A stretch of DNA of 54,276 bases from a virus: positions 1-54,276 of the IMG/VR virus record IMGVR_UViG_3300025121_000066; one strand, 5' to 3'. The notes beneath the pieces were generated by a model. It did not search any database. It had not been told where the DNA came from and saw nothing but the letters and a program-made list of their open reading frames with translations. Shown here piece after piece: positions 9,894 to 35,174 of this stretch (positions are counted from its first letter, which is position 1; each line of letters opens with the position of its first letter). The position numbers and the translations under genes are program-made.

Positions 9894-11681
9894 ATGATTA
9901 ATAATCAATCAATTTTAAAAAATGACGATGTAAGTAATTCAGTAAGAACGAGATACGCACCAAGCCCTACGGGACCAAATCATATTGGAGGTGTTAGAAC
10001 AGCACTTTATAATTACTTATTTGCTAAAAAGCATGGTGGTAAATTTATTTTAAGAATAGAAGATACTGATAGTAAACGATTTGTACCAGGTGCAGAAGAA
10101 TATATTATTGAATCTTTTAAATGGTTAGGATTAGATTTTGATGAAGGTCCAAATGTAGGTGGTTCGTATGGTCCGTATAAACAATCCGAACGTAAAAATA
10201 TCTATAAAGATTATGCTTTAATGTTAATTAATAAAGGTTTAGCATATTATGCATTTGATAGTTCAGATGATTTAGATCAAGCAAGAAAAATAGATAGTCA
10301 TTTTTCATATGATTATAATAGTAGAAAATCATTAAAGAATTCATTAACATTATCACAAGAAGAAGTTAAACATTTAACTGAAACATCTAATAATTGGACT
10401 ATTAGAATTAAATATCCTGATCAACCAACTACAATAGTAGTTAATGATATTATTAGAGGTGTTGTTAAAGTTGAATCTGATACACTTGATGATAAAGTTA
10501 TTTGGAAATGTATTGATCAATTACCAACATATCATTTAGCAAATATTGTTGATGATCATTTAATGAAAATTTCGCATGTAATTAGGGGTGAAGAATGGTT
10601 GCCATCTGCACCATTACACGTTTATTTATACGAATGCTTTGATTGGGTTCCTCCATTATTTGCACATTTACCTTTAATTCTTAAACCAGAAGGAAATGGT
10701 AAATTAAGTAAAAGAGATGGTGATTTATTAGGATTTCCTGTATTTCCTTTGGAATGGATTGATCCAAGTGGTGATGAAAGTAAAAATTCAAAAGGATATA
10801 GAGGTGAAGGATATTTACCTAAAGCAGTTTTAAATTTTCTTGTATTTTTGGGTTGGAATCCAGGAACAGAAAAAGAAGTTTATTCATTAGATGAATTAAT
10901 TCAAGATTTTTCTTTAGAAAGAGTTAATAAAGGTGGTGCTAGATTTAATCCAACAAAAGCAAATTGGTTTAATGCACAATATTTGAAAAAAACTGATACT
11001 GAACTATTAGTTGATTATTTTAAATCTGATTTAGAAAAAAGAGGAATTTATAAAGATGACGATTTCATTTTTAAAGTAGTTGATAAGTATAAAGGTAAGG
11101 TTGATTTTATTAAGAATCTTTATGATGAAGTTAAATTTATTTTTGATAAACCAATTGATTTTGATAAAAAATCATTAAAAAAATGGAAATATAATTCAGA
11201 TAAAATTGTTAAAGATTTTGTTAATAAATTGAGTAATTTAAATGATTGGTTTGCTAATGATATTCAAAATATTTTTAATAATTATACTATTAACAACAAT
11301 ATCAATACTAATGAATTAGCATCAGTTTTAAGATTATTATTAACTGGTAAAGCAAGTGGTACATCTCCATTTGATACAATGGAGATTATTGGTAAAATAG
11401 ATACATTAGATCGTTTAACTAAACACAATTTATCTACAGATACTAATATATCTAACTTAGATAATAATGTTGATAATATTAAAAAACAAAAAATTAATCA
11501 ATTATCGGCTGAATTAGATGGTTCTAAAAAATCATTAAAATCTACAGAAGGTAAATTAAGCAATGTAAATTTTATGGAAAAAGCACCAAAAGATGTAGTT
11601 GATAACGAAATAATTAAAAAGGATGAATTAATTTTAAAGATTTCTAAAATAGAAAAAGAATTATTTGAATTACAAGCATAG
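9894..11681 (+). CDS. gltX: Glutamyl-tRNA synthetase with ValRS-like C-terminal arm
   Basis: 595 aa, about 90 longer than usual. The class I core is intact: 'YAPSPTGPNHIGG' (21-33) is the HIGH motif, 'RIEDTD' (54-59), 'RGEEWLPSAP' (231-240) and 'KLSKRDG' (270-276) is the KMSKS motif. The sequence style is that of Bacteroidetes GluRS. Residues 535-595 do not belong to GluRS: 'KLSNVNFMEKAPKDVV' (554-569) and the flanking coiled coil match the tRNA-binding arm at the end of valyl-tRNA synthetase. It should charge tRNA-Glu in the cytoplasm; no tRNA-Glu is seen in the window. Driven by its own host-type promoter. Confidence 0.95.
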   Translation: MINNQSILKNDDVSNSVRTRYAPSPTGPNHIGGVRTALYNYLFAKKHGGKFILRIEDTDSKRFVPGAEEYIIESFKWLGLDFDEGPNVGGSYGPYKQSERKNIYKDYALMLINKGLAYYAFDSSDDLDQARKIDSHFSYDYNSRKSLKNSLTLSQEEVKHLTETSNNWTIRIKYPDQPTTIVVNDIIRGVVKVESDTLDDKVIWKCIDQLPTYHLANIVDDHLMKISHVIRGEEWLPSAPLHVYLYECFDWVPPLFAHLPLILKPEGNGKLSKRDGDLLGFPVFPLEWIDPSGDESKNSKGYRGEGYLPKAVLNFLVFLGWNPGTEKEVYSLDELIQDFSLERVNKGGARFNPTKANWFNAQYLKKTDTELLVDYFKSDLEKRGIYKDDDFIFKVVDKYKGKVDFIKNLYDEVKFIFDKPIDFDKKSLKKWKYNSDKIVKDFVNKLSNLNDWFANDIQNIFNNYTINNNINTNELASVLRLLLTGKASGTSPFDTMEIIGKIDTLDRLTKHNLSTDTNISNLDNNVDNIKKQKINQLSAELDGSKKSLKSTEGKLSNVNFMEKAPKDVVDNEIIKKDELILKISKIEKELFELQA

Positions 11682-12069: not shown

Positions 12070-13062
12070 TTAAAAGTTAAATATCGAACTTAATATTGAT
12101 AATCTTTTATTAATTGGTGGCAATCCAAGTGGTTCAATGAATTTATTTACTATACTTAAAATGGTTTTATCAAATTGTTCATCTATATCAATTTTAACCT
12201 TTTCCTTTTCAACTATTTCTATTGGATGAAAACTTCTTAAATATCCGAATACTTCATTAATAGGATGTTTACAATAATAATATTTAATTCTACCAGATTT
12301 AATCATATCATATTTAGTTTTAAATTCACTATTCTTATTCAATAGATAATTATGGAAACATGCAGCTTTAACACCATAATGAGCACCTTTTACTGTATTT
12401 ACACCCATTGTATCATCTAAAACTTTTATATTATAATTTGTACAGCTAGTAGTCATACTGATATCTTCTATATCTGTTAATTCAAATTCCTTTTTAAGTT
12501 GTTTAACAATTTTTAATACTTCATAAATGTTTAAATTACCTGGATTAGAAAATAAATAATTTATAACTCTATAAATATTTTTTCTTACAAATGGTGGAGT
12601 AGATGATCTAATAATTTCTATTCCCTTTGGATAAAAATATGATAATGATTCATAATTAACACCATCTTCCCAAACTATATTATTTAGGTAATGCTTCTTT
12701 TTTAAAAATAGAGCAGACTTACTAATTGTTTCTAATTCAAAATCGTGTAAATTATGAACATGATATTGTGCAGCATAATCATCTAAAAATTTATCAAAAA
12801 GAGGTTTAATAAAAATATGATCAACGTGAATTATAAAATTTTTAGTTAATGTATCATTTTCATTAGGGTTAAACCCAACAGATTTCATTAATGGTGTCAT
12901 AGAAACATATAGACTATTATGTACTAAAATATCATTTGCTATAAATGTATGTGTATCATCATTTACTTCTATATCATATACGTATTCTTCTTCAAATTCA
13001 CCAATCATTTCACATGATTCCACATCATCAAAAATATATTCTATATCGTCTATCTTATTCAT
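12070..13062 (-). CDS. DNA polymerase B, C-terminal piece with C-intein
   Basis: 330 aa. Residues 1-49 are a C-terminal split intein: 'YVYDIEVNDDTHTFIAND' (block F) then 'ILVHN' (block G), followed by Ser50. After splicing the extein begins SLYVSM, completing the polymerase motif YGDTD-SLYVS. Later 'KKKHYLNN' and 'KGIEIIRSSTPPFVRK' match the T4-type thumb/palm region. It needs the piece at 14152-15087 to be active. The two are separated by an endonuclease gene. The +1 Ser and terminal HN are intact, so trans-splicing is expected. Confidence 0.92.
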   Translation of the reverse strand: MNKIDDIEYIFDDVESCEMIGEFEEEYVYDIEVNDDTHTFIANDILVHNSLYVSMTPLMKSVGFNPNENDTLTKNFIIHVDHIFIKPLFDKFLDDYAAQYHVHNLHDFELETISKSALFLKKKHYLNNIVWEDGVNYESLSYFYPKGIEIIRSSTPPFVRKNIYRVINYLFSNPGNLNIYEVLKIVKQLKKEFELTDIEDISMTTSCTNYNIKVLDDTMGVNTVKGAHYGVKAACFHNYLLNKNSEFKTKYDMIKSGRIKYYYCKHPINEVFGYLRSFHPIEIVEKEKVKIDIDEQFDKTILSIVNKFIEPLGLPPINKRLSILSSIFNF

Positions 13063-13064
13063 TT

Positions 13065-14126
13065 TTATATAATATTATTCATTTTTTCAATTAAATTATC
13101 ATCATATCTAATAATTATGTAATTTATATAATTATTATTACAGTAAGTTTGTTTAATTAAATTTTGAATATATTTTAATGTTTTTTCACCACCAAAGTAA
13201 TCTATTGGTTCATAGTGTTGTTTTCCATTATATTCTATACACAAATTATATTCAGGTAAGTAAAAATCAAAATATAGAGGCAATTTGTTTATGCAATATT
13301 CAAACGTCTTTTGATATTTAAAATTAATATTATTATTTTCTAAAAATAACATAATTTGTTTTTCTCCTTTTGAACTTTTACAATAAGGACAACCTTGTTT
13401 GGAATTAATATGATCTTTTGGGTTTTGTTTAAATATACCATGTTTTTTACATATAATTTTAACTTTGGTATAACTATTAATATAATTAACTAATGAATAA
13501 TCATAAATATTATTATGTATTTTATTAGATTTTTCTATGAAAGATTTTTTATTATCACAAAATTTTTCATATTTACATTTTGGACAACCTTGACCTAATA
13601 TATGTTGTGTTGGTCGTTGTTCAAATTCACCGTGTTTTGGACAAATTATTTTAATTTTAACTGTACTACCTTCATATTTTACTAATGAATAATCATAAAT
13701 ATTATTATGTATTTTATTAGATTTTTCTATAAAAATATGTTCATTATATCTGTTAGCACATTTTGGGCAACCACATTTTTCATTAATATGATTATCTGGA
13801 GTTTGTTTAAATTCACCATGAATTGAGCAAATGATTTTAACTTTTGTTTTTGCATTAATATATTTAAGTAAAGAATAATCATATTTATCATTATGAATTT
13901 TTTTAGATTCTTTTATAAATTCTTCTGTTGTTTTTACTTTACTTCCTCCACATATTTGACAACCTCTACCCGATAAATGCTTTGCTGGAATTTGTTCAAA
14001 TATACCGTGTTCTTTACATATTATTTTAATTTTGGTTCGATTATTAATATAATTAACTAGACAATAATTGTATCTATCACCGTGAATTTTTAATGATTTA
14101 TTTATAAATATTTTAGTTTTAGTCAC
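13065..14126 (-). CDS. Free-standing homing endonuclease, DUF723 repeats plus Vsr-like nuclease
   Basis: 353 aa. Four copies of a 'D.Y.YSLV.Y....KIKIIC..HG.F.Q....H' repeat with CxxC zinc knuckles (DUF723-like, DNA binding) fill residues 10-260. The end ('FDFYLPEY' then 'CIEYNGKQHYEP') looks like the Vsr/EDxHD-type nuclease found between split inteins in 'fractured' genes. The only in-frame start is GTG at 14126. It sits exactly between the two intein halves of the DNA polymerase, as that arrangement predicts. Confidence 0.88.
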   Translation of the reverse strand: MTKTKIFINKSLKIHGDRYNYCLVNYINNRTKIKIICKEHGIFEQIPAKHLSGRGCQICGGSKVKTTEEFIKESKKIHNDKYDYSLLKYINAKTKVKIICSIHGEFKQTPDNHINEKCGCPKCANRYNEHIFIEKSNKIHNNIYDYSLVKYEGSTVKIKIICPKHGEFEQRPTQHILGQGCPKCKYEKFCDNKKSFIEKSNKIHNNIYDYSLVNYINSYTKVKIICKKHGIFKQNPKDHINSKQGCPYCKSSKGEKQIMLFLENNNINFKYQKTFEYCINKLPLYFDFYLPEYNLCIEYNGKQHYEPIDYFGGEKTLKYIQNLIKQTYCNNNYINYIIIRYDDNLIEKMNNII

Positions 14127-14151
14127 ATATTATATATTAAAGAAATTGAAA

Positions 14152-15087
14152 TTATTTTTTTCTGATTATTAAAATTTTATCAGTTTTTAATACTTCAGAT
14201 GGTTTTACTTCTATTTTTTCACCATTTCTAAATACAATCATAGAGTGATCATTAGTTACTATTATTTCTTTACCTGTTTTTGTTTTTAATTTCCATTTAG
14301 ATTTAGTTACTTTATGTCTTATAATTCGTTTAACTGGTGCATAATATAAACCTTTTTCTTCACAATAATTTAATATATTATCATTACATTTAACAGATTC
14401 ATGTCCTTTCAATGTTATGCCATTAGAACCATTTTTAATATTTTTATTATATAATTCTTCAATTGTTGAATTACCATTAATAGTATATATAGTAGAATTT
14501 TTATCGACACTATCAGTATCACCATATATAACTATTTGATTTTCACCAGTATATTTTTGTCTACCTTCTAAAGTTGTCCAAATAGGGTTTTCATCTAAAG
14601 GATTAACATTTTTAAAATCCCAGATATTATATTGATACATTATTTGAATATCATCGTGTTCAAATTCATATACTTCTAAATCGTCTAAACTAATTTCTTT
14701 ATGTTTAAATAAATCGTTTAATGTATCATGTTTCCAACCTATAATTTTGAAATCCATAGAAAGACATACAAATTTTTCATCCATTTTACCGATATATTCT
14801 ACACCTAACATATCGTGTTTTTTAATATCATTATGCCAATTATTATAAAAATATAATTCAATTCTTTCCATCATAAATTGATTTACATCTCTTCCATGAG
14901 CTGTAATTGAATTAGCAATATCAGCATTAGAACACACAAAATACTTATTAGCAAATGCACCATAAGTTCCGTTAAGTGTTAACTTCAAGGCTAATTGCAT
15001 AGCTTTTGCATAGTCGTGTTCCTTTTTCTTATTATCTATTAGAATTTTTAATTCGTTAATTCTTTGTTTTTTTTGTCTATCGTCCAT
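14152..15087 (-). CDS. DNA polymerase B, middle piece with N-intein
   Basis: 311 aa. 'LKLTLNGTYGAFANKYF' (34-50) is polymerase motif B; 'IYGDTD' (187-192) is motif C. Directly after D192 an N-terminal split intein starts: 'SVDKNSTIYT' (193-202, block A) and 'IIVTNDHSMIVF' (275-286, block B with His281). Motif A and the exonuclease domain are missing and a stop in frame lies just upstream of the ATG, so a third piece must be encoded elsewhere. An endonuclease gene lies at each break. Confidence 0.92.
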   Translation of the reverse strand: MDDRQKKQRINELKILIDNKKKEHDYAKAMQLALKLTLNGTYGAFANKYFVCSNADIANSITAHGRDVNQFMMERIELYFYNNWHNDIKKHDMLGVEYIGKMDEKFVCLSMDFKIIGWKHDTLNDLFKHKEISLDDLEVYEFEHDDIQIMYQYNIWDFKNVNPLDENPIWTTLEGRQKYTGENQIVIYGDTDSVDKNSTIYTINGNSTIEELYNKNIKNGSNGITLKGHESVKCNDNILNYCEEKGLYYAPVKRIIRHKVTKSKWKLKTKTGKEIIVTNDHSMIVFRNGEKIEVKPSEVLKTDKILIIRKK

Positions 15088-15125
15088 AAATAAAAATTAT
15101 TTAATATATATTATGTATTATATTT

Positions 15126-16727
15126 TTAAAAAAATGTTTTAAAAATAAATTTATAATTTCCAGAATTATAAATACGATAAATTTTACGTTCTAACATAAT
15201 TTCTTTACTTGTTTTATTTTTATCAAATCCTTGTTTTATTAAATTACTTTTTCTAAAATTAAATCTATGTTTTCTGATATTATCAACTATATAATAATGA
15301 TTAGGTGGTGTTAAACTATCTATATTAAATCCTAATTTTTTATACAAATTTCCGTTAGAATAACTTCTATCTGCATAACTTGATATATATTCTGGATTAT
15401 ATTCTTTAATAAAATGTTTAAATAATTTTGAAGCTCCACCAATAACATTAGTATTTAATTTATTACAAAATCTTATAAGTTCAAATTTATTATCTGTTGA
15501 TTTTAAATTCATCATTTTTCTTAATTTACCAAAAGTCATTAAACTAACTAATTCATTTTCAAAAAATAATCCTAACTTAATTGATGATCCTACAAAGCCT
15601 TGAATATGATTTTTATTTAAGAAATTTTTAACTAATTTATTATCAGTTATCTCTCTTATTTCAGTTTTTCTTGCAAATATTCTATTTGATGATTTTTTGA
15701 ATTTATTTAAAATCATTGATTTGACTATATCTTTTTTAAATTCCCAATCATCTTCATAAATATGAATTAATTGAATTCCTTTTTCTTCACATAAATCAGA
15801 TTTATTTTTATGATAATTTTTATCTTTATTTAATTCATTATGCCAATATAATCCATTAAATTCGAATGCTAACTTTAAATCAGGTAGATAAATATCTAAT
15901 TCATATGGTTTTATTATTTTTTTACTATTTTCGACAATTTCGTCTTTATAGTTTTCTTTTATAAAATTTAATAATTGTTTTTCTATTTGTGATATATTCA
16001 TAAACCCAATAGGATTACAATTTAAACACAATTCATTATCGTATAAAATTCTTAATTGTAATAAATTTGAATTAATTAAATAATATTGATTACATTTATC
16101 ACATTTTAATTTATACTTATCATCAATCTTATCGATAATGATTAAATTATGTTTTTCTTTATAAATTTTTATAGAGTTATTAAATTTAGTAATTGAATTA
16201 CTTTTTTGAATTTTATTTTTAAAATAATCTAATTCTGATATATGATTAACACCATACTTATTTTTAATAGTGTTATTTATTTTTTCTCTTATTATATTTG
16301 ATGATAATGCATAATCTGTACCATATACTTCATTACATGTATTTATATATTTAGGCATATTATTATAATTTTCATCACCATATTTTTCGAATTTAGTTTT
16401 TTTCCCCTTTTCTTTTATTGATTCTACTTTCATAGGATTATCAACACCATAATTAATATTAAATGTTTTTTTCTTTTTTATTGTTGAACATTTATGGCAA
16501 GTATAAAAACCATATCTTTCATAATTGTCCATATATTTATTATATGTTAATTGTTTTTCATCATTACAATTTAAACATTTAATATTAATTAAAGCTCTAC
16601 TATTTCTAGGCAAATCATCTATTTTAACTTTTATTATATTATGTAAATCCACATTATAACCCTTATCTTTATAATATGATATATTTCTATATGACATTTT
16701 TATATCTATTGTTTTATCTAAAATCAT
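15126..16727 (-). CDS. Free-standing homing endonuclease (Hef-like), 533 aa
   Basis: Zn-knuckle pairs near the start ('CLNC', 'CHKC'), then repeated 'YGVDNPM..ES...K...T..EKYG' units typical of phage homing nucleases. 'ELDIYLPDLKLAFEFNGLYWH' carries the PD-(D/E)XK-like catalytic strand. A last domain follows. The start at 16727 follows a TATATATA motif by 18 nt. It lies beside the other break in the polymerase gene (before motif B), so it probably marks the site where the N-terminal piece was separated. Confidence 0.85.
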   Translation of the reverse strand: MILDKTIDIKMSYRNISYYKDKGYNVDLHNIIKVKIDDLPRNSRALINIKCLNCNDEKQLTYNKYMDNYERYGFYTCHKCSTIKKKKTFNINYGVDNPMKVESIKEKGKKTKFEKYGDENYNNMPKYINTCNEVYGTDYALSSNIIREKINNTIKNKYGVNHISELDYFKNKIQKSNSITKFNNSIKIYKEKHNLIIIDKIDDKYKLKCDKCNQYYLINSNLLQLRILYDNELCLNCNPIGFMNISQIEKQLLNFIKENYKDEIVENSKKIIKPYELDIYLPDLKLAFEFNGLYWHNELNKDKNYHKNKSDLCEEKGIQLIHIYEDDWEFKKDIVKSMILNKFKKSSNRIFARKTEIREITDNKLVKNFLNKNHIQGFVGSSIKLGLFFENELVSLMTFGKLRKMMNLKSTDNKFELIRFCNKLNTNVIGGASKLFKHFIKEYNPEYISSYADRSYSNGNLYKKLGFNIDSLTPPNHYYIVDNIRKHRFNFRKSNLIKQGFDKNKTSKEIMLERKIYRIYNSGNYKFIFKTFF

Positions 16728-16744
16728 AATTCGTTTTTTGTTTT

Positions 16745-16752
16745 TATATATA
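16745..16752 (-). promoter_or_regulatory. Putative late promoter (TATATATA)
   Basis: Core motif 18 nt before the start at 16727 of the 533-aa endonuclease gene; this supports the internal ATG over the open frame further upstream. Confidence 0.45.
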
Positions 16753-16820
16753 AAATACAAATGCACCGAAAGTAGCATTTAATATAATGTATAACTTATG
16801 AAAAAAAATGTTTTTATTTT

Positions 16821-25059: not shown

Positions 25060-25935
25060 ATGTTAGAAGAAATTAAAGATTATGGTAAAACATTAGGTTT
25101 AATTCGTAATGAATTAGAAAATTATATAGTAAATAATAACCTTAAATCATTAGTATTAGGTATTAGTGGTGGTATCGATAGTGCTTTAGTAGCATCAATT
25201 GCAAAGCCTATTTGTGATTATATAAAAATACCTCTTATCGGAAGAAGTATTTCTATTGATAGTAATAAACAATCTGAAATTGACAGAGCTGATGCTATTG
25301 GTCATTATTTTTGTACAAATTTTAAACATAGAAATTTAACTGATGAATTTATAAAATTATCAGAAATTAATGCTTTTGATGAAGGTGTATTGAATATAGA
25401 TTGGAGTAATAATTTAGCAGATAAAACTCGACTTGGTAATATTAAAGCAAGAATAAGAATGATTTATTTATACCATTTAGCAAGTTTAACTAAAGGAATG
25501 GTATTAGGGACAGAAAATTTAACAGAAGAAAATTTAGGTTTTTTTACTATAGGTGGAGATGAAATATCTGATTATGAACCTATTAAAAAATTATGGAAAA
25601 CTGAAGTATATAATTTATCAGAATGGATTGTAAAAAATGAATTATCTGGTGATAAATCAAAAGTTTTAATGGATTGTATCAAAGCAGATGCAACAGATGG
25701 GTTAGGAATTACTAATACGGATTTAGATCAAATTCTTCCTGATTTTGTAGGAAATAGTAGAGAAGGGTATTTAGAGATAGATAATATATTTAAAAAATAT
25801 TTTGAATTAATCAGTACAAATACAGAAAAGGATAAAATATTAGAATTAGAAAAAACAATAGTGATTCAAAGATATCATAAAACTTCTTTCAAAAGAAAAA
25901 GACCTATTATTATAGAAAGAAATAAAATATTATGA
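25060..25935 (+). CDS. nadE: NAD synthetase
   Basis: 291 aa, the NH3-dependent size. 'GISGGIDSA' (34-42) is the ATP-pyrophosphatase P-loop; 'GNIKARIRM' (near 126), 'LGTENLTEE' (near 149) and the acidic cluster after it bind deamido-NAD and ATP. It makes the last step to NAD+ in the cytoplasm. There is no amidase domain, so ammonia must come from solution or a partner. With the PARG, Nudix and SLOG genes it suggests active NAD handling by the phage. Ends next to the parS-like palindrome. Confidence 0.95.
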   Translation: MLEEIKDYGKTLGLIRNELENYIVNNNLKSLVLGISGGIDSALVASIAKPICDYIKIPLIGRSISIDSNKQSEIDRADAIGHYFCTNFKHRNLTDEFIKLSEINAFDEGVLNIDWSNNLADKTRLGNIKARIRMIYLYHLASLTKGMVLGTENLTEENLGFFTIGGDEISDYEPIKKLWKTEVYNLSEWIVKNELSGDKSKVLMDCIKADATDGLGITNTDLDQILPDFVGNSREGYLEIDNIFKKYFELISTNTEKDKILELEKTIVIQRYHKTSFKRKRPIIIERNKIL

Positions 25936-28137: not shown

Positions 28138-28701
28138 TTATTTTTCAACAAAATATTCATTAATATCTTCGTCTTCTAATTGATCTTCACTTTCAATTAA
28201 ATAATCTGTAAAACAAATAGATACTAATACTGTACCATATTGTTCATTTGGTATCATTGATTGAACAATATAATTTTCTCCTTCCATTGTATAATGTGAA
28301 AAAGATTTGTTTTTAAGTTCTGATAATGATTCTTGTAAAGTTTCTTGTAAAGTTTCTTCGTCATAATATCCACCTCTTTGAACAACAATTCCTCCGATAT
28401 TATTTTCGTTTTTATCGTACAACCAACCGTATGCAATTCCTGCTGAAATCATTTCATCTTTTCTTCCGTCAAATCTACTCATAATACAATTCATAATTGA
28501 ACCAAAATGCAAATTAGTAGGTTGTTCTATTTCTGTTGCTTCTGGTGGTAATATTGAATTAAATTCAATAATATTTAAATTTCCTATTCCTGCATCTCTT
28601 AACGCTAAATAATAACTTCCTGATGTATGGGTATGTCTACTTTCACCACATCCCTGTGTTACAAAAAAACTATGCGGAATAAAATTTTGTATTTTTCTCA
28701 T
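28138..28701 (-). CDS. Pyruvoyl-dependent arginine decarboxylase
   Basis: 187 aa. 'IPHSFFVTQGCGES' (8-21), 'ALRDAGIGNLNIIEFNSILPPEA' region (33-55) and 'GWLYD..NENNIGGIVVQ' fit the PvlArgDC family. The family self-cleaves before a serine to make a pyruvoyl group; here the site would be Asn48-Ser49 in 'FNSILPP' (usual Ser-Ser or Thr-Ser), with the key serine kept. It would convert arginine to agmatine, a polyamine precursor. The sequence ends in a long acidic tail. Function in the phage (charge balance for packaged DNA or host acid response) is inference. Confidence 0.85.
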   Translation of the reverse strand: MRKIQNFIPHSFFVTQGCGESRHTHTSGSYYLALRDAGIGNLNIIEFNSILPPEATEIEQPTNLHFGSIMNCIMSRFDGRKDEMISAGIAYGWLYDKNENNIGGIVVQRGGYYDEETLQETLQESLSELKNKSFSHYTMEGENYIVQSMIPNEQYGTVLVSICFTDYLIESEDQLEDEDINEYFVEK

Positions 28702-28775: not shown

Positions 28776-28808
28776 AAAAAAGACCAATTATAAATAATTG
28801 GTCTTTTT
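28776..28808 (-). terminator. Terminator after RNase P RNA
   Basis: AAAAAGACCAATTA pairs with TAATTGGTCTTTTT; read on the minus strand it directly follows the 3' end of the RNase P RNA and ends in a U-tract. Confidence 0.85.
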
Positions 28809-28812
28809 ATTT

Positions 28813-29031
28813 TTGAGAAATGAGCGTAGCCAGAATTCTGTTAATAAAACTAATTAAAGTTTTAAGTGTTATCATTTGTCTATTTGCCCCAACCTTACCA
28901 TTATAGTGTAGCTCACCCACTAAGCTTTTTCGGGTTGCATCCTCGGCAGTACTAACGATTTTAATCTCCTGCCTTCAGCTAAGATGTTCTGAACTTCCTC
29001 TCCGTAGAGCGATAACCCCTCTGTTTCTCAA
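28813..29031 (-). ncRNA. rnpB: RNase P RNA, compact (about 219 nt)
   Basis: On the minus strand the ends TTGAGAAA and TTTCTCAA pair as helix P1. Near the 5' end 'GAGAGGAAGTTCAGAAC' and near the 3' end 'ACAGAATTCTGGCTAC' match conserved regions I and V; AGTTCAGAA pairs with TTCTGGCT leaving one bulged U, the universal P4 feature. 'GGGGCAAATAGACAAATGAT' resembles the region IV segment of Bacteroidetes RNase P. It lacks roughly 120-180 nt of peripheral helices of normal bacterial RNAs. It would trim tRNA 5' ends and lies next to the tRNA array. A terminator follows. Confidence 0.85.
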
Positions 29032-29046
29032 TTTTAAAAATAAATA

Positions 29047-29922
29047 TTAAATTTTCATTTTTCTTCCTTTGCCCCAACCTTTTTCCACCCAGTCAGTTAA
29101 TTCTTCTTTTTTAATTTTTTTATTTTCTTTTAATTTCTTATTATAAATCCAACAAGTACCAAATTGACTATTTTCTTTTCCAGTATATTTTCCTTTCAAT
29201 GATTTACTTGTTTTTAATCTTGATTCTAAACTATGTTTTTTTCCTTGGTTTATATAAACTAATTCACCTGATAAATATCTTGGGTCATCTACTGATACTT
29301 GATAATTATTATTATATTTATCTTTTACTGTTACCATTCCTTTAGAATGTCCTACTAATTCTTTTGATAAATATCTTGGATCATTTATCGGTACTTTTAA
29401 CGTATTACCTTCTTTATCTTTAACATTAACCATTCCCGTAAATATATAAACTAATTCACCTGATAAATATCTTGGGTCATCTACTGATACTTGATAATTA
29501 TTATTATCTTTATCTTTAACATTAACCATTCCCGTAAATATATAAACTAATTCACCTGATAAATATCTTGGGTCAGTTTTATGTATCATCTGTGTATTGC
29601 CGTTTTTATCTTTTACAGTAACTAAATTTTCGGTATTTAACCCCCACCCACCTAATGATATATTATATGTATCACCTCTTATAATGAATTCTTCATTTAC
29701 TAATTCTTTTTCTTTATTTAACATTTCAATTTCGTTATCAAAATTATAGAGAACTATCTTTTCAAAATTTTCCATACCAAATTCTTTAATTGCCTTTTTT
29801 ATGTTAGAACCAGAACCCATATATTTATCATTAATTCGTTCAGTAATATGAACTCCGATATAAATATTATCATTAATTTTATTAGTAATTTGATAAACTA
29901 CATAATGTTTCTTCTTTTTCAT
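29047..29922 (-). CDS. GIY-YIG homing endonuclease with four internal repeats
   Basis: 291 aa. 'HYVVYQITN' (6-14) and 'NIYIGVHIT' (19-27) form the GIY-YIG core. Residues 101-227 are four 32-residue repeats of the form 'VKDK.GN....(S/N)DPRYLSGELV', of which two are nearly identical in DNA. The end 'CWIYN...K.IKKEELTDWVEKGW.KGRK' is the common C-terminal module of T4-like phage endonucleases. Beside the RNase P RNA and ArgDC genes. TATATATA lies 21 nt upstream, inside a 9-bp inverted repeat. Confidence 0.9.
   Translation of the reverse strand: MKKKKHYVVYQITNKINDNIYIGVHITERINDKYMGSGSNIKKAIKEFGMENFEKIVLYNFDNEIEMLNKEKELVNEEFIIRGDTYNISLGGWGLNTENLVTVKDKNGNTQMIHKTDPRYLSGELVYIFTGMVNVKDKDNNNYQVSVDDPRYLSGELVYIFTGMVNVKDKEGNTLKVPINDPRYLSKELVGHSKGMVTVKDKYNNNYQVSVDDPRYLSGELVYINQGKKHSLESRLKTSKSLKGKYTGKENSQFGTCWIYNKKLKENKKIKKEELTDWVEKGWGKGRKMKI
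29239..29622 (-). repeat. Four 96-bp coding repeats
   Basis: Tandem 96-bp units encode the 32-residue repeats of the GIY-YIG endonuclease. The second and fourth units share long identical stretches, which points to recent duplication or recombination. Confidence 0.85.
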
Positions 29923-31215: not shown

Positions 31216-31248
31216 AATTACATAGTAAAATAACTTCATTGTACCCTG
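31216..31248 (-). repeat. Repeated tRNA trailer sequence (also at 34640-34669)
   Basis: 'TTACATAGTAAxAxAACTTCxTTGTACCCT' occurs at the 3' end of tRNA-Leu here and of the Arg tRNA at 34664. It suggests that tRNA units were duplicated together with their 3' flanks. Confidence 0.6.
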
Positions 31249-31327
31249 AGTGGGATTTGAACCCACATAGTATATTTCAACTGCCAGTTCCTAAAACTGG
31301 TGCGTCTGCCGATTCCGCCACCAGGGC
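31242..31327 (-). tRNA. tRNA-Leu (TAG)
   Basis: Class II cloverleaf: acceptor GCCCTGG/TCAGGGT, D-arm GCGGAATCGGCAGACGC, anticodon stem CCAGT/ACTGG with loop TTTAGGA, variable arm, T-arm and discriminator A. CCA is not encoded. Confidence 0.9.
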
Positions 31328-31355
31328 ATTCATTTGTTATATTGTAACTTTGTTG

Positions 31356-31435
31356 TACCCAAGGTGGGACTTGAACCCACATACCTTTCGGCACTGGTTT
31401 CTTAGGCCAGCATGTCTGCGTTCCATCACTCGGGC
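31356..31435 (-). tRNA. tRNA-Leu-like (AAG), imperfect anticodon stem
   Basis: Acceptor GCCCGAG/CTTGGGT, Leu-type D-arm and short variable arm (GCC/GGT). The loop CTAAGAA gives anticodon AAG, but the first stem pair beneath the loop is C-A, so the arm is weak. It may be functional or decaying. Confidence 0.75.
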
Positions 31436-31437
31436 AT

Positions 31438-31653
31438 TTATTTTATATTATAATCTCCCCACCATTTATGAACTGCATTGTAAGGAACTACATCTGCTTT
31501 TTGTCCTTCTTTTGGTTCATCGTAAAATTTTAAACACCAATATCCACTCTTATGTACTATATAAAATGTTACCCTATCATATGCATCATATTCTGTATAA
31601 CAATAATCGTCTGATACATGTCTTACACTTTTCCCATTTTTATATTTTGTCAT
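31438..31653 (-). CDS. Hypothetical protein, 71 aa
   Basis: Aromatic-rich, soluble, unrecognised. Start chosen at 31653, 17 nt after a good host-type promoter; upstream in-frame codons would lie in the promoter. It lies between tRNA genes. Confidence 0.7.
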   Translation of the reverse strand: MTKYKNGKSVRHVSDDYCYTEYDAYDRVTFYIVHKSGYWCLKFYDEPKEGQKADVVPYNAVHKWWGDYNIK

Positions 31654-31669
31654 AATTTCTAATTTTACA

Positions 31670-31700
31670 CAAAAATACAAAAAATTATTGAATTATACAA
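31670..31700 (-). promoter_or_regulatory. Host-type promoter (minus)
   Basis: On the minus strand TTG (31700-31698), 20-nt spacer, TATTTTTG (31677-31670), upstream of the 71-aa gene and possibly of the two Leu tRNAs. Confidence 0.72.
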
Positions 31701-31742
31701 AATAAAGAACACAATATATTAAGGTATATTGTGTTCTTATTG

Positions 31743-31817
31743 AGCATCGTGTCGGGTTCAAACCGACCCTATTCTGCGGTGGAAGCGCAGTGCCATAATC
31801 AACTAGGCGAACGATGC
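31743..31817 (-). tRNA. tRNA-Gly (TCC)
   Basis: Acceptor GCATCGT/ACGATGC with discriminator U, D-arm, anticodon stem CTGCG/CGCAG with loop CTTCCAC. A normal class I tRNA. Its 5' 15 bases overlap the end of the HNH endonuclease gene. Confidence 0.9.
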
Positions 31818-32522
31818 ATTATATTCTTGTATTAAATTTTCATATGTTAATTTCTTTAATTGATTTCTATATCTTTGTCTTTCACTTCTACCATTTCCAT
31901 TATTTAAAGATCCAAATGTTTTTGTTAATGAATGACAACTAGGACACAATAAATCTAAATTTTCTTCTAAATTATTTTTACTATTTCCATCTTTATGTTC
32001 AACTTGTAAAGGAATTTTATTTGTATAAGGATTTATTTTATTCCATCCACATTCAGTACATTTGCTATTATATTTTTTAAATAAATATTTTCTTATATAT
32101 GTAGATAATCCACTTCCAGATATTCCATTTTCTTCACCATTTTTCCACCTTTTTATATATTCATTATATTCATAATCACATTGACATTTATCACTACAAT
32201 ATTTTTTTTGTCTTCCTTCTAAATTTTTATCACAACATACACAATTTTTAATTTTCTTTTTTTTCTTTTTATTATTAAAAGATGCTGAACAACTTTTACT
32301 ACAAAATTTTCTTTCGTCTCTATCACTTATAATTTCTGTTTGGCAATTTAAACAAAAAAATATTTTAGTTTCTTTATAATCACTACTTTTTATTCCTAAT
32401 CTAAAACACTTTGATCTAATTGATTGATTTGTAGTTTCAAATATATTAGCAATTTCATCATAAGTATAACCATTTGTAATATATTGAATTAATTCTTTTA
32501 TACTTTCTTCTGTCCATTTCAT
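31803..32522 (-). CDS. HNH homing endonuclease
   Basis: 239 aa. N-terminal helix-turn-helix ('WTEESIKELIQYITNG' and 'YTYDEIANIF', residues 3-30), two zinc knuckles ('CLNC...CSKSC', 'CVCCDKN...CSDKC'), then the HNH core with 'CTECG', 'QVEHKDGNSKNN' and 'LLCPSCH'. Start at 32522 follows TATATATA by 21 nt; the open frame further upstream runs through tRNAs and is not coding. Its stop lies inside tRNA-Gly, so it sits in the tRNA array like a mobile insert. Confidence 0.9.
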   Translation of the reverse strand: MKWTEESIKELIQYITNGYTYDEIANIFETTNQSIRSKCFRLGIKSSDYKETKIFFCLNCQTEIISDRDERKFCSKSCSASFNNKKKKKKIKNCVCCDKNLEGRQKKYCSDKCQCDYEYNEYIKRWKNGEENGISGSGLSTYIRKYLFKKYNSKCTECGWNKINPYTNKIPLQVEHKDGNSKNNLEENLDLLCPSCHSLTKTFGSLNNGNGRSERQRYRNQLKKLTYENLIQEYNASFA

Positions 32523-32542
32523 AATTTTATATCTTTTTTTAT

Positions 32543-32550
32543 TATATATA
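32543..32550 (-). promoter_or_regulatory. Putative late promoter (TATATATA)
   Basis: Core 21 nt before the HNH endonuclease start at 32522. Confidence 0.45.
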
Positions 32551-32583
32551 AAATTTGAGCGGTCTGTTTTTTTTAATTTTTTG

Positions 32584-32657
32584 AGCGAATGACGGGACTT
32601 GAACCCGCAAACCTTCTGCTTGGCAAGCAGACTATCTACCAATTGATATACATTCGC
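32584..32657 (-). tRNA. tRNA-Gly (GCC)
   Basis: Acceptor GCGAATG/CATTCGC, discriminator U, anticodon stem TCTGC/GCAGA with loop TTGCCAA, T-arm intact. Class I. Only six nucleotides separate it from the next tRNA. Confidence 0.92.
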
Positions 32658-32662
32658 GTTTG

Positions 32663-32753
32663 AGCAGGTAGTGAGATTCAAACTCACGTTGTAGGCATTA
32701 ATGCCATTTCTGGATTGGAAGTCCAGCGCCATCGACCACTAGGCGACACCTGC
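32663..32753 (-). tRNA. tRNA-Gly-type (TCC) with long variable arm
   Basis: 91 nt. Acceptor GCAGGTG/TACCTGC with G1-C72, C2-G71 and discriminator U, as in glycine tRNAs; anticodon stem CTGGA/TCCAG, loop CTTCCAA. But the D-arm (GCCTAGTGGTCGATGGC) and a variable arm GGCA-TTAA-TGCC are of the serine/leucine class II kind. It may be a Gly tRNA with an added arm, or a Ser-like tRNA reading a Gly codon. Confidence 0.8.
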
Positions 32754-32781
32754 AAAAATTTTAAAAAATGATTTAAATATT

Positions 32782-32842
32782 AGGGAAAATTATTATCGTC
32801 TTTAATTCCACATAGATTGCGATTCTACATGTATTTCCCTTT
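32782..32842 (-). ncRNA. tRNA-like mini-structure without D and T arms
   Basis: Minus-strand ends GGGAAA/TTTCCC form an outer stem and a second stem, GTAGA with TCTAT, surrounds the loop ATCGCAA. Neither D-arm nor T-arm is present in the ~60 nt. It lies in the tRNA array and could be a remnant tRNA or a spacer hairpin. Confidence 0.3.
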
Positions 32843-32892
32843 GTAAAGATTGAAATGAAAAATAGTAAACTATTAACATTAAATCATTTTTG

Positions 32893-32975
32893 TTGCGACG
32901 ACTGGTTTCGAACCAGCGGTACCCGAAGGATCTTGGATATGAGCCAAGTGCAATTGACCACTCTGCCACGTCGCA
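32893..32975 (-). tRNA. tRNA (CAT) with variable arm
   Basis: Acceptor TGCGACG/CGTCGCA with discriminator A, anticodon stem CTTGG/CCAAG with loop CTCATAT. CAT is a Met or, if modified to lysidine, Ile anticodon. Yet the D-arm and a 14-nt variable region with a CC-TTCG-GG hairpin are of class II kind. Identity uncertain. Confidence 0.8.
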
Positions 32976-32980
32976 ATATT

Positions 32981-33160
32981 AAAGTCTTTTTGTCCATTTT
33001 CAGTGAAATACCATTACGTTTTTGGATTGGTCCTGCCGTAACTTATGTATCTTTACAATAAACATCAACTGCTGAATCAGTCTATAATGATGTAGTTTTT
33101 CCTGGCTTTACAAGATTTCTAACTCTTACATTACTGTTTATCTTCAAGCAAAAAGACTTT
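32981..33160 (-). ncRNA. Putative structured RNA closed by a 12-bp stem
   Basis: AAAGTCTTTTTG (32981-32992) and CAAAAAGACTTT (33149-33160) are exact complements. Inside are ACATCA/TGATGT (33062-33067 with 33088-33093) continuing with ACTG/CAGT, and TTACG/CGTAA (33014-33018 with 33037-33041) holding GGA/TCC. No gene is predicted here. The strand is uncertain; minus is favoured by the neighbours. Class unknown. Confidence 0.5.
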
Positions 33161-33166
33161 GTGTTT

Positions 33167-33904
33167 TTAAATTATTTTTAAATCTTTTAATTCTTTTCTT
33201 TTCCATATAAGTAATGGTTCTTTAAATTGTGACCATTTACATTCATCTAAATCTGTTTGATATCCTTTAACTTCTAAATATGTATTCCAATCATGAATAT
33301 AAAAATCGGGACAATATGTTGATTTTTTATCTTTTAAATTAATATATTTAAATCTTTTTTTATTACGTTCCCATTTTACATTTATATTATCCAAATATTT
33401 AGCAACGCCTAATTCCCAACTACCATCTACTTTAATAATTCCTGCTATTGGGCTAGTATAATCATATTTAGGTGCTCTTCCACATTTTACTTCCCATCCA
33501 TTATCATATCTTTCTAATATTTTTTTTCGGATTTTTTTACATCTAATTTCTTCTTTTTCAGGTGTCGATCCTAATCCAGATGATGTAAATCCTCCTTTAC
33601 GACTACCTTCTATATATGATTCATATTTATCTGGTGAAAGAATGTCTTTCATTTTTTTACCTTTATTCCATCCTTGACCTTTTCCTATATTTAATCTTCT
33701 ACGTCTTGGTCCTCTACTATCACAACTATTTACATGTTTTTCTATAGATGATTTTATTTCAAAATTACATTTTGGACATATAAATATTTTTTTATTTTGT
33801 TTTTCCAAATCTGTTTTTGTTCCAAACCCATCACAATAATTTTCGTGATTAGATTTACCAGCTTTATTTTTAAATTCTTTATTACATTTGCTACAATTAT
33901 ACAT
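33167..33904 (-). CDS. Homing endonuclease, zinc fingers plus PD-(D/E)XK-type nuclease
   Basis: 245 aa. Two zinc fingers ('CSKCNKEFKNKAGKSNHENYC' region 4-24 and 'CPKCNFEI...HVNSC' 43-60), a basic linker, then a nuclease domain with 'YCPDFYI' and 'TYLEVKGYQ' (the D...ExK pattern), resembling F-CphI or I-Ssp6803I-like cyanobacterial and phage enzymes. It interrupts the tRNA array. TATATATA lies 20 nt upstream. Confidence 0.85.
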   Translation of the reverse strand: MYNCSKCNKEFKNKAGKSNHENYCDGFGTKTDLEKQNKKIFICPKCNFEIKSSIEKHVNSCDSRGPRRRRLNIGKGQGWNKGKKMKDILSPDKYESYIEGSRKGGFTSSGLGSTPEKEEIRCKKIRKKILERYDNGWEVKCGRAPKYDYTSPIAGIIKVDGSWELGVAKYLDNINVKWERNKKRFKYINLKDKKSTYCPDFYIHDWNTYLEVKGYQTDLDECKWSQFKEPLLIWKRKELKDLKII

Positions 33905-33923
33905 AATAACTATTATTTTTTAT

Positions 33924-33931
33924 TATATATA
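33924..33931 (-). promoter_or_regulatory. Putative late promoter (TATATATA)
   Basis: Core 20 nt before the endonuclease start at 33904. Confidence 0.45.
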
Positions 33932-33971
33932 AAAATCATACAGGTCTAAAATTACCACTTTAAATATACTG

Positions 33972-34056
33972 CGGAGGACAAGGGAATTGAACCCTCGGAT
34001 CGTGAGACCAGATATTTAGCAGATACCCGCAACTAACCAACATTTGCCTATCCTCC
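33972..34056 (-). tRNA. tRNA-Ser (GCT)
   Basis: Class II: acceptor GGAGGAT/GTCCTCC, discriminator G, anticodon stem GGTAT/ATATC with loop CTGCTAA, variable arm GGTC/GATC, T-arm GAGGG/CCCTT. Matches serine identity. Confidence 0.9.
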
Positions 34057-34073
34057 TTTTGTGTTTATAGTTG

Positions 34074-34153
34074 TGGAACTGGTGGGATTCGAACCCACGT
34101 TTTCGACCCTGCGTGCAAGGCAGGCGCTTACGGCCAAACTGAGCTACAGCCCC
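34074..34153 (-). tRNA. tRNA-Ala (TGC)
   Basis: Acceptor GGGGCTG/CAGTTCC with discriminator A, anticodon stem CCTGC/GCAGG with loop CTTGCAC, T-arm GTGGG/CCCAC. Long D-loop with GGCC. Class I. Confidence 0.9.
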
Positions 34154-34445
34154 AAAACTGCTACTTTTTTTAAAGGAAATCAACAAAACCATTTGTGGAA
34201 TGTTGCGGAATTTCATCGTCATGCCAATTGTCATAATACTATACAACCGTGAGGATTTTAATACCCCTTCACCCCATATTTTAAAGTGAAGGATAATATA
34301 ACTTCTTCATCAGAAATCATATTACCTATTTAGATAACCTAAGTTCGGTCTACACCTCAAACGATATCAAACCCCCTGTAGGTTAGGTAATTTATCGTAC
34401 TTAGTTAAAAATACCGTGAATATTTCTATGTTGTCTAATACTTCG
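34154..34445. other. Non-coding, structured spacer in the tRNA array
   Basis: About 290 nt with no convincing gene. Several stems can form, including CCTTCAC/GTGAAGG (34268-34296 region) and ATTACCTA/TAGGTAAT around 34319-34393 with a nested AACCTA/TAGGTT. It could be another non-coding RNA or tRNA remnants; class not recognised. Confidence 0.35.
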
Positions 34446-34518
34446 TACCTCGGGTGGAACTCGAATCCACAGTCGCAAGTTTAGAAAACTTGTGCTTTTT
34501 CCATTAAGCTACCAAGGC
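34446..34518 (-). tRNA. tRNA-Arg (TCT)
   Basis: Acceptor GCCTTGG/CCGAGGT (with G-U pairs), anticodon stem CAAGT/ACTTG with loop TTTCTAA, T-arm GTGGA/TCCAC, discriminator A. Confidence 0.9.
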
Positions 34519-34536
34519 ATTTTTGTGTTTTTAGAG

Positions 34537-34622
34537 AACCCCATGCGAGACTCGAACTCGCATGTCATTTCCAATTACTCGTTTAACGACACTGTTTAGA
34601 AGACTGTTGAGAATAATGGGGC
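34537..34622 (-). tRNA. tRNA-like element lacking a D-arm
   Basis: Acceptor GCCCCAT/ATGGGGT and T-arm GCGAG-TTCGAGT-CTCGC are clear. Between them an arm ACAGT/ACAGT (one A-A mismatch) with loop CTTCTAA suggests anticodon TCT, but only six nucleotides remain for a D-arm and a 28-nt variable region follows. It may be a defective tRNA, an interrupted tRNA or a tRNA mimic. Confidence 0.55.
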
Positions 34623-34639
34623 TTGTGTTTTTATTGTAC

Positions 34640-34669
34640 TTACATAGTAAGACAACTTCGTTGTACCCT
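34640..34669 (-). repeat. Repeated tRNA trailer sequence (also at 31216-31248)
   Basis: Second copy of the sequence found after tRNA-Leu at 31242. Confidence 0.6.
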
Positions 34670-34736
34670 TAACAAGATTCGAACTTGTACAAAAAATTTA
34701 GGAAATTAATATGCTTCTCCATTACATCATAAGGGC
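34664..34736 (-). tRNA. tRNA-Arg (CCT), weak anticodon stem
   Basis: Acceptor GCCCTTA/TAAGGGT, T-arm ACAAG/CTTGT, discriminator A; loop TTCCTAA gives CCT, but the two outer anticodon-stem pairs are T-T mismatches. Possibly decaying. Confidence 0.75.
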
Positions 34737-34742
34737 ATTTTG

Positions 34743-34815
34743 AACCCCCTATGAGATTTAAACTCATAACCTCTCGGGCCGTAACCGAGTGCTCCGTTCG
34801 TTAAGCTAAGGGGGC
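34743..34815 (-). tRNA. tRNA-Arg (ACG)
   Basis: Acceptor GCCCCCT/AGGGGGT, anticodon stem CTCGG/CCGAG with loop TTACGGC, T-arm ATGAG/CTCAT. Confidence 0.9.
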
Positions 34816-34847
34816 TTATGTTTTTCATAATTAATTTTATATTTTTG

Positions 34848-34921
34848 TCTAGGTGGCGGGCTACGATCCCACGACATCCACATCCCAAATGTGGCATTCT
34901 ACCTGGCTGAATTACACCTAG
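34848..34921 (-). tRNA. tRNA-Pro (TGG)
   Basis: Acceptor CTAGGTG/CACCTAG (C1-G72), discriminator A, D-arm ATTC/GAAT, anticodon stem CCACA/TGTGG with loop TTTGGGA, T-arm GTGGG/CCCGC. Confidence 0.9.
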
Positions 34922-34975
34922 AAAACACACAATACGTCAAAGAACTTTTCATTGATAAATCAATGAAACTTAATG

Positions 34976-35061
34976 CTGTCCAGGTAGGGTTCAAACCTAC
35001 AAATTCCTCACGGAACACCAGATCCAAAATCTGGCGCGTTTATCAATTCCGCCACTGGACA
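34976..35061 (-). tRNA. tRNA-Gln-type (TTG) with leucine-like body and long variable arm
   Basis: Acceptor TGTCCAG/CTGGACA (U1-A72) and discriminator G are glutamine identity features, anticodon stem CCAGA/TCTGG with loop TTTTGGA reads TTG. The D-arm (GCGGAATTGATAAACGC) and a variable arm (GTTCC/GGAAT) are those of a leucine tRNA. Looks like a Leu tRNA re-made for glutamine. Confidence 0.82.
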
Positions 35062-35079
35062 ATATTTTAAAGAACTAAT

Positions 35080-35095
35080 TGTTCCACGTGGAACA
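35080..35095. promoter_or_regulatory. parS-like palindrome, site 2
   Basis: TGTTCCACGTGGAACA, identical to site 1 at 25939-25954; flanks extend it to 18 bp. It lies in the spacer between two tRNA genes with no T-run, so it is not a terminator. Confidence 0.72.
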
Positions 35096-35099
35096 AGTT

Positions 35100-35174
35100 G
35101 GGTGATATGTGGGTTACGATCCCACTACCTTCTGCGCCACAAGCAGACACTCTACCGATTGAGCTAATACCACC
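35100..35174 (-). tRNA. tRNA-His (GTG)
   Basis: Acceptor GGTGGTA/TATCACC, discriminator C as in histidine tRNAs, anticodon stem TCTGC/GCAGA with loop TTGTGGC, T-arm GTGGG/CCCAC. The base before position 1 is not G in the gene. Confidence 0.9.

Follow-up and report, generated by a model that had tools for sequence, protein, structure and literature searches.

RNase P, with which nearly all cells trim their tRNAs, is one of the few ribozymes conserved almost throughout life, and the assumption so far has been that phage tRNAs depend on the host's enzyme. In the archaeal type T RNase P RNAs of Pyrobaculum and other Thermoproteaceae, nearly the whole specificity domain is absent (PMC7191817), and the diverged RNase P RNAs of CPR bacteria have lost helices P12, P13, P14 and P18 and are missed at Rfam cut-offs (PMC8172020). 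The isolated catalytic (C) domain of the E. coli RNA is active without the specificity (S) domain; a P6-like contact helps and P18 is dispensable (PMC5839562). The efficiency of C domains on their own is nevertheless lower than that of complete RNAs (PMC5839562), a point against a functional reading of the RNA described below. Theta ribozymes of gut phages adjoin tRNA genes and have a proposed role in tRNA maturation (PMC10879173). In the open-access literature searched, a scope that left subscription papers and most preprints outside, no description of a viral RNase P RNA, phage ones included, was found; RNase P goes unmentioned in the huge-phage paper, as do phages in the P finder paper (PMC7191817). 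As far as that literature goes, the phage RNA family described here is previously unrecognised.

The window analysed here is the whole 54,276-nucleotide stretch of IMG/VR virus record IMGVR_UViG_3300025121_000066. A first-pass annotation had proposed that it encodes a compact RNase P RNA of about 219 nt, in which P1 and a P4 with a bulged U could be drawn and conserved regions near both ends and in the centre matched. An Rfam scan of the window at gathering thresholds returned tRNAs only and no RNase P family. When the scan was run at E-value thresholds, the best match was the archaeal RNase P family RF00373 (28818–29025, minus strand, 26.4 bits, E 1.1e-5), which spanned the model end to end and stayed below its gathering score of 84. 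RF00373 is the best Rfam match because archaeal RNase P RNAs likewise lack P13, P14 and P18. Single-sequence folding of the RNA was mildly better than that of shuffles (z −1.7); with so weak a signal, proof that it is an RNase P RNA rests on comparison. A covariance model, R1, was therefore built from 16 family sequences, relatives being gathered by pattern scans of IMG/VR. R1 scored the window RNA at 153 bits (E 9e-27), the window being one of its 16 training sequences. The elements of the RNA are as follows; conservation is that seen in an alignment of 13 phages unless noted.

28813–29031, minus strand: compact RNase P RNA, 219 nt from P1 to P1 (RF00373, model R1, covariation)
29024–29031, minus strand: P1 5' strand, UUGAGAAA, pairing with 28813–28820; 83% of cells paired, two-sided changes in 10 of 11 pairs
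28813–28820, minus strand: P1 3' strand, UUUCUCAA, partner of 29031–29024, with the same P1 covariation
29011–29016, minus strand: P2 5' strand, GUUAUC, pairing with GAUAAC at 28868–28873; 94.9% of cells paired, two-sided changes in 4 of 6 pairs
28995–29000, minus strand: conserved region I, GAGGAA, invariant
28987–28995, minus strand: P4 5' strand, AGUUCAGAA, paired to 28828–28835; its bulged U, at 28992, is invariant
28828–28835, minus strand: P4 3' strand, UUCUGGCU, partner of 28987–28995
28983–28986, minus strand: P5 5' strand, pairing with 28938–28941; 100% of cells paired, two-sided changes in 2 of 4 pairs
28977–28981, minus strand: P6 pseudoknot 5' strand, UAGCU, pairing with AGCUA at 28909–28913 in L17
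28945–28973, minus strand: P7 and a short P8-like hairpin, all that remains of the specificity domain
28888–28934, minus strand: P15–P17 region; 92–97% of cells paired, with two-sided changes
28932–28934 with 28888–28890, minus strand: P15, with covariation
28923–28926 with 28896–28899, minus strand: P16; the outermost pair is an A-A mismatch in the window
28918–28922 with 28904–28908, minus strand: P17, with covariation
28892–28894, minus strand: GGU of J16/15, invariant and kept in nearly all aligned rows of a 55-sequence alignment
28872–28883, minus strand: conserved region IV, AUAGACAAAUGA (AGA..AAUGA), almost invariant
28836–28841, minus strand: conserved region V, ACAGAA, invariant

The structure drawn on the 13 phages comprises P1–P7, one P8-like hairpin and P15–P17, and 92.2% of its cells pair. 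Two-sided changes occur in 41 of 58 pairs of helices P1–P7 and P15–P17, and 0 of 500 shuffles reached any of five measures. Slid versions of the structure pair in only 33–42% of cells, a comparison that favours the drawn version since it was drawn by eye from the same 13 sequences. P1 and P4 lie at the proposed positions, on the minus strand, and each shows covariation among the phages. In P4, 99% of cells are paired, 5 of 8 pairs show two-sided changes and the bulged U is invariant; the bases beside the bulge are not those of E. coli, which counts against a functional reading. P2 interlocks with P4, forming the expected pseudoknot. P7 (28969–28973 with 28945–28949) pairs in 95.4% of cells, with two-sided changes in 4 of 5 pairs. 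R1 was built without P6, so the covariation of this helix is independent of the model: in the 55-sequence R1 alignment 97.9% of its cells are paired and 5 of 5 pairs show two-sided changes, with variants such as CAGCU/AGCUG, GAACC/GGUUC, AAACC/GGUUU, CCGCA/UGCGG and CAGUU/AACUG. We take the GGU of J16/15 to correspond to the motif through which bacterial RNase P RNAs base-pair with the tRNA 3' RCC(A).

The P6 pseudoknot, P16 and P17, which are type A features, are thus all present in the phage RNAs. The full specificity domain (P7–P14 with conserved regions II and III) is missing, the P5 strands enclosing only P7 and a short hairpin, and in the window and most relatives no P18 helix lies between P15 and conserved region IV, where a few relatives have inserts. 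Because the specificity domain and P18 are missing, we class the RNA as a variant and not as standard type A. In what they have kept and what they have lost, the phage RNAs match the isolated E. coli C domain (PMC5839562). The first-pass proposal was thus borne out in each computational test applied, including its length (219 nt) and its conserved regions (I, IV and V); a covariance-model match and P1/P4 covariation among phages, on which it had staked its claim, were both seen. We conclude that descent and fold both make the phage RNA an RNase P RNA, of a minimal bacterial-type form, and that it belongs to a widespread viral family. The small size and the Rfam score under the cut-off might also suggest that a host rnpB was captured and is now decaying, without function. 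Nearly every helix, however, shows compensatory changes among dozens of diverged phages, which is the reverse of what decay would produce and makes this explanation hardly credible.

When the window alone was used as a blastn query, one convincing relative was found, the 642-kb huge phage LR756502, which also matches RF00373; the remaining matches were short and were not taken as relatives. Searches with further members revealed the RNA in LR756501/LR756503 (735 kb), LR745206 (634 kb) and LR756511 (595 kb), and R1 scored the LR756501, LR745206 and LR756511 loci at 112–123 bits. The family thus extends to the largest phages known. A match to Prevotella phage Lak-C1 was dropped, there being no model match. 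Altogether, R1 scores of 52 bits or more were obtained in at least 78 viral records (45 + 16 + 17), the window and LR756502 included; several of these are near-duplicates, and because R1 was trained on 16 family members, scores within the family are partly circular. The figure of 78 is a lower bound because the IMG/VR scans used exact patterns. Outside the family, R1 gave 16.6 bits on E. coli rnpB and less than 9 bits on canonical Gemmataceae rnpB. RF00373 matched at E ≤ 1e-3 in 16 of 34 records, with values of 1e-5 to 1e-12 for the window and its relatives, and the type A model RF00010 scored high-GC family members at 71–83 bits. A cultured phage, Stenotrophomonas phage vB_SmaS-DLP_6 (DLP6), also carries the RNA (KU682439.2, ca. 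105,780–106,020, plus strand; R1 57.9 bits, E 7e-10), within its tRNA cluster, in an unannotated gap ca. 20 nt before a tRNA-Arg gene. The DLP6 paper does not mention this RNA, and Rfam does not report it in DLP6. Misassigned contigs, with bacterial rnpB entering among viral records, were considered and rejected: 16S rRNA was found in 0 of 34 records and terminase in 12, which include most of the large ones. The carriers of the compact RNA are phages. In four loci a second, weak R1 match (20–29 bits) lies close to the first (L151:1511–1648, L154:2656–2793, L155:967–1104 and L014:10864–10972), and is either a diverged second copy or a chance match.

The RNA has these surroundings in the window:

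31241–35173, minus strand: 14 tRNA genes (ARAGORN), likely substrates
28777–28808, minus strand: terminator-like hairpin of 14 bp with a T run, immediately downstream of the RNA (0.1 per region in shuffled sequence)

A terminator-like element was thus seen straight after the RNA, where a terminator had been proposed. Other Rfam matches, STnc240 and Yfr10 among them, lie wholly or partly on this hairpin and were set aside. About 15 tRNA genes had been placed beside the RNA; the cluster exists and is entirely on the strand of the RNA, but it holds 14 genes by ARAGORN and the nearest lies 2.2 kb upstream, a distance that counts against the functional reading. Across 52 loci, one of which (L162) is a contig of a metagenome-assembled genome (MAG) without tRNAs, 31 have a tRNA gene within 5 kb of the RNA, 11 of these within 30 nt. 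Since nearby tRNA genes share its strand (229 of 230 within 5 kb), the RNA appears often to be part of a tRNA transcription unit; the 230 genes are not independent observations, because phage gene blocks are usually co-directional.

All 14 tRNA genes of the window encode C74 but no CCA, and 13 have A at position 75. An encoded C74 without C75 was considered as a partner of the GGU motif and rejected, control phage loci without the RNA showing the same pattern. Some carriers have tRNAs with CUA or UUA anticodons (L026:8144–8218, L147:4924–4996, L016:2573–2647); these are possible suppressors, hinting at stop-codon recoding.

We estimate a probability of about 0.8 that the window locus encodes a functional miniature RNase P RNA, for which catalysis on phage pre-tRNAs is, judging from sequence comparison, the most likely function. 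The RNA, which keeps the bacterial type A catalytic domain (P1–P5, the P6 pseudoknot and P15–P17) and has nearly all of the specificity domain gone, would be expressed with or near the phage tRNA genes. It would bind the protein subunit RnpA, which as far as seen would be the host's for the window's phage and the phage's own in some huge phages. The complex would then cleave the 5' leaders of phage pre-tRNAs, and perhaps also those of remaining host pre-tRNAs, and the phage would presumably gain from having its own RNase P RNA.

A phage RNase P might instead act mainly on tmRNA, mRNA or other structured RNAs of the phage, with tRNAs as secondary substrates. Without the specificity domain tRNA recognition would be looser, several carriers have no tRNA gene in the fetched flank, and in some carriers a tmRNA gene lies in the same array (L071:1263–1644, L131:929–1353, L132:696–1063, L149:1534–1901, L237:6510–6874). 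Yet in most loci with any tRNA genes the RNA sits among them, the motif for tRNA 3' ends, GGU, does not vary, and LR756502, with no tRNA gene near its RNA, has 46 elsewhere. We consider a different main substrate quite unlikely, and phage pre-tRNAs remain the preferred one.

The protein subunit was searched for as RnpA (PF00825). None was found in the window, which is a 54-kb fragment, and among ca. 75 viral records three were positive (LR756502, LR745206 and the 476-kb IMGVR_UViG_3300032236_002285), most carriers showing none. The LR756502 protein scores above the cut-off of TIGR00188 rnpA (52.5 bits) and matches B. subtilis RnpA in PDB (E 5e-6); it contains DRNRVKRLMRE, a motif of the RNR type, and shares 56% identity with the RnpA of IMGVR_UViG_3300032236_002285. 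The gene adjoining rnpA is common to these two phages (40% identity), which argues for descent of RnpA within phages. The three huge phages could assemble a complete viral RNase P. The first-pass annotation had suggested that the window's phage would be independent of host RNase P or might compete with it; with no RnpA seen in its 54-kb fragment, this phage may instead borrow RnpA from the host. That most carriers have no RnpA of their own, and that the specificity domain is gone, would also suit a decoy or competitor, in which a protein-binding part of the catalytic domain titrates host RnpA or pre-tRNAs and lowers host tRNA processing with no cleavage. A decoy would hardly account for the invariant or covarying parts of the active site and substrate-binding surface (P4, the bulged U, GGU and regions I, IV and V), for the three phages that encode RnpA, or for the position of the RNA in tRNA arrays; we regard it as unlikely and favour a catalytic RNA.

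The two bacterial genomes described next are a further point against a decoy, because the compact RNA is apparently their sole RNase P RNA. When one family pattern was scanned over 84,980 prokaryote genomes, three R1-positive contigs were obtained. One, L162, belongs to a Deltaproteobacteria MAG that also has a canonical rnpB, and may be phage DNA. The other two are from Gemmataceae MAGs (G033 and G035):

L166:4585–4768: compact RNA in a Gemmataceae MAG (R1)
L160:407–590: compact RNA in a Gemmataceae MAG (R1)

In G035 the contig is 367 kb long and the RNA is flanked by ordinary bacterial genes (a DUF58-like gene and one for a 4-alpha-glucanotransferase, judged from their translations); in G033 the contig measures 6.8 kb. 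In both, tRNA genes directly follow the RNA. The two RNAs are 86% identical, and in these incomplete MAGs they are the sole RNase P RNAs detected by RF00010. Both MAGs have a normal RnpA. In an approximate tree of a mostly viral set, based on a short alignment, the two RNAs group with phage RNAs (support 0.90). The compact form is not a general Gemmatales trait: canonical RNA was above the cut-off in 27 of 31 family members sampled, and a Gemmatales-wide R1 search, with 34 candidates scored per genome, found the compact RNA in G035 only. A second RF00010 match in G052 and both matches in G068 resemble canonical rnpB that has degenerated or been cut by a contig end, and not the compact form. 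These sequence data fit a putative virus-to-bacterium replacement of rnpB in Gemmataceae, a reading that, direction included, rests on incomplete MAGs and a short alignment. The wider proposal, that large phages evolved and transmit their own minimal RNase P (the RNA, in some with RnpA), which moved into at least one Gemmataceae lineage and replaced the cellular rnpB there, is a tentative one that we hold to be possible but somewhat improbable. If true, a free-living cell would rely on an RNase P of viral origin to mature the 5' ends of its tRNAs.

The window contains a further translation gene:

9894–11681, plus strand: glutamyl-tRNA synthetase (TIGR00464, 446.9 bits, above the cut-off; PF00749)

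It also encodes a NusG-like protein. DNA polymerase B is present as two ORFs (12070–16778, minus strand) with intein-splicing pieces at the break, i.e., a split-intein polymerase; an HNH/homing endonuclease ORF lies between the halves and another homing endonuclease ORF after them. A GIY-YIG homing endonuclease gene (29047–29922, minus strand) with four 96-nt repeats ends ca. 15 nt before the RNase P RNA, and the end of this gene and the P15–P16 region of the RNA have the 14-mer TTTGCCCCAACCTT in common, possibly reflecting homing near the ribozyme gene. On the other side, a gene for pyruvoyl-dependent arginine decarboxylase (28138–28701, minus strand) adjoins the RNA gene, and an NAD synthase gene lies at 25060–25935.

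A broad viral family of RNase P RNAs, in some cases with the protein, extends the translation-related genes of phages to tRNA 5' maturation and points to many phages supplying a tRNA-processing enzyme of their own. Standard Rfam annotation overlooks the RNA in both the window and DLP6. The phage RNAs offer a natural set of bacterial-type ribozymes free of the S domain for probing the capacity of the catalytic domain, and the cultured carrier DLP6 makes the question testable now.

Compared with the known systems, the phage RNA is closest to bacterial type A (RF00010; E. coli M1 RNA), with which it shares P1–P5, P6 between J5/7 and L17, P7, P15–P17, conserved regions I, IV and V, the bulged U of P4 and the GGU motif. 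It differs in lacking P9–P14 and P18, in its length of ca. 200–220 nt versus 377 in E. coli, and in being phage-encoded, often within tRNA arrays. Like archaeal type T, it is without the specificity domain (P11, P12 and conserved regions II and III), but type T is archaeal and cellular, whereas the phage RNA keeps P6, P16, P17 and GGU and the protein seen with it is a bacterial-type RnpA. These features suggest that the reduction is independent of that in type T. From the archaeal family RF00373 it is set apart by a score far under the gathering cut-off and by its missing specificity domain. The CPR RNAs resemble it in helix loss and in falling below Rfam cut-offs; they are cellular and less reduced, and some have lost the UGG/GGU motif, which is retained in the phage RNAs. 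Theta ribozymes are likewise phage ribozymes beside tRNA genes, but they are self-cleaving, HDV-like and act in cis at the tRNA 3' end, whereas the action of RNase P is in trans and at the 5' end.
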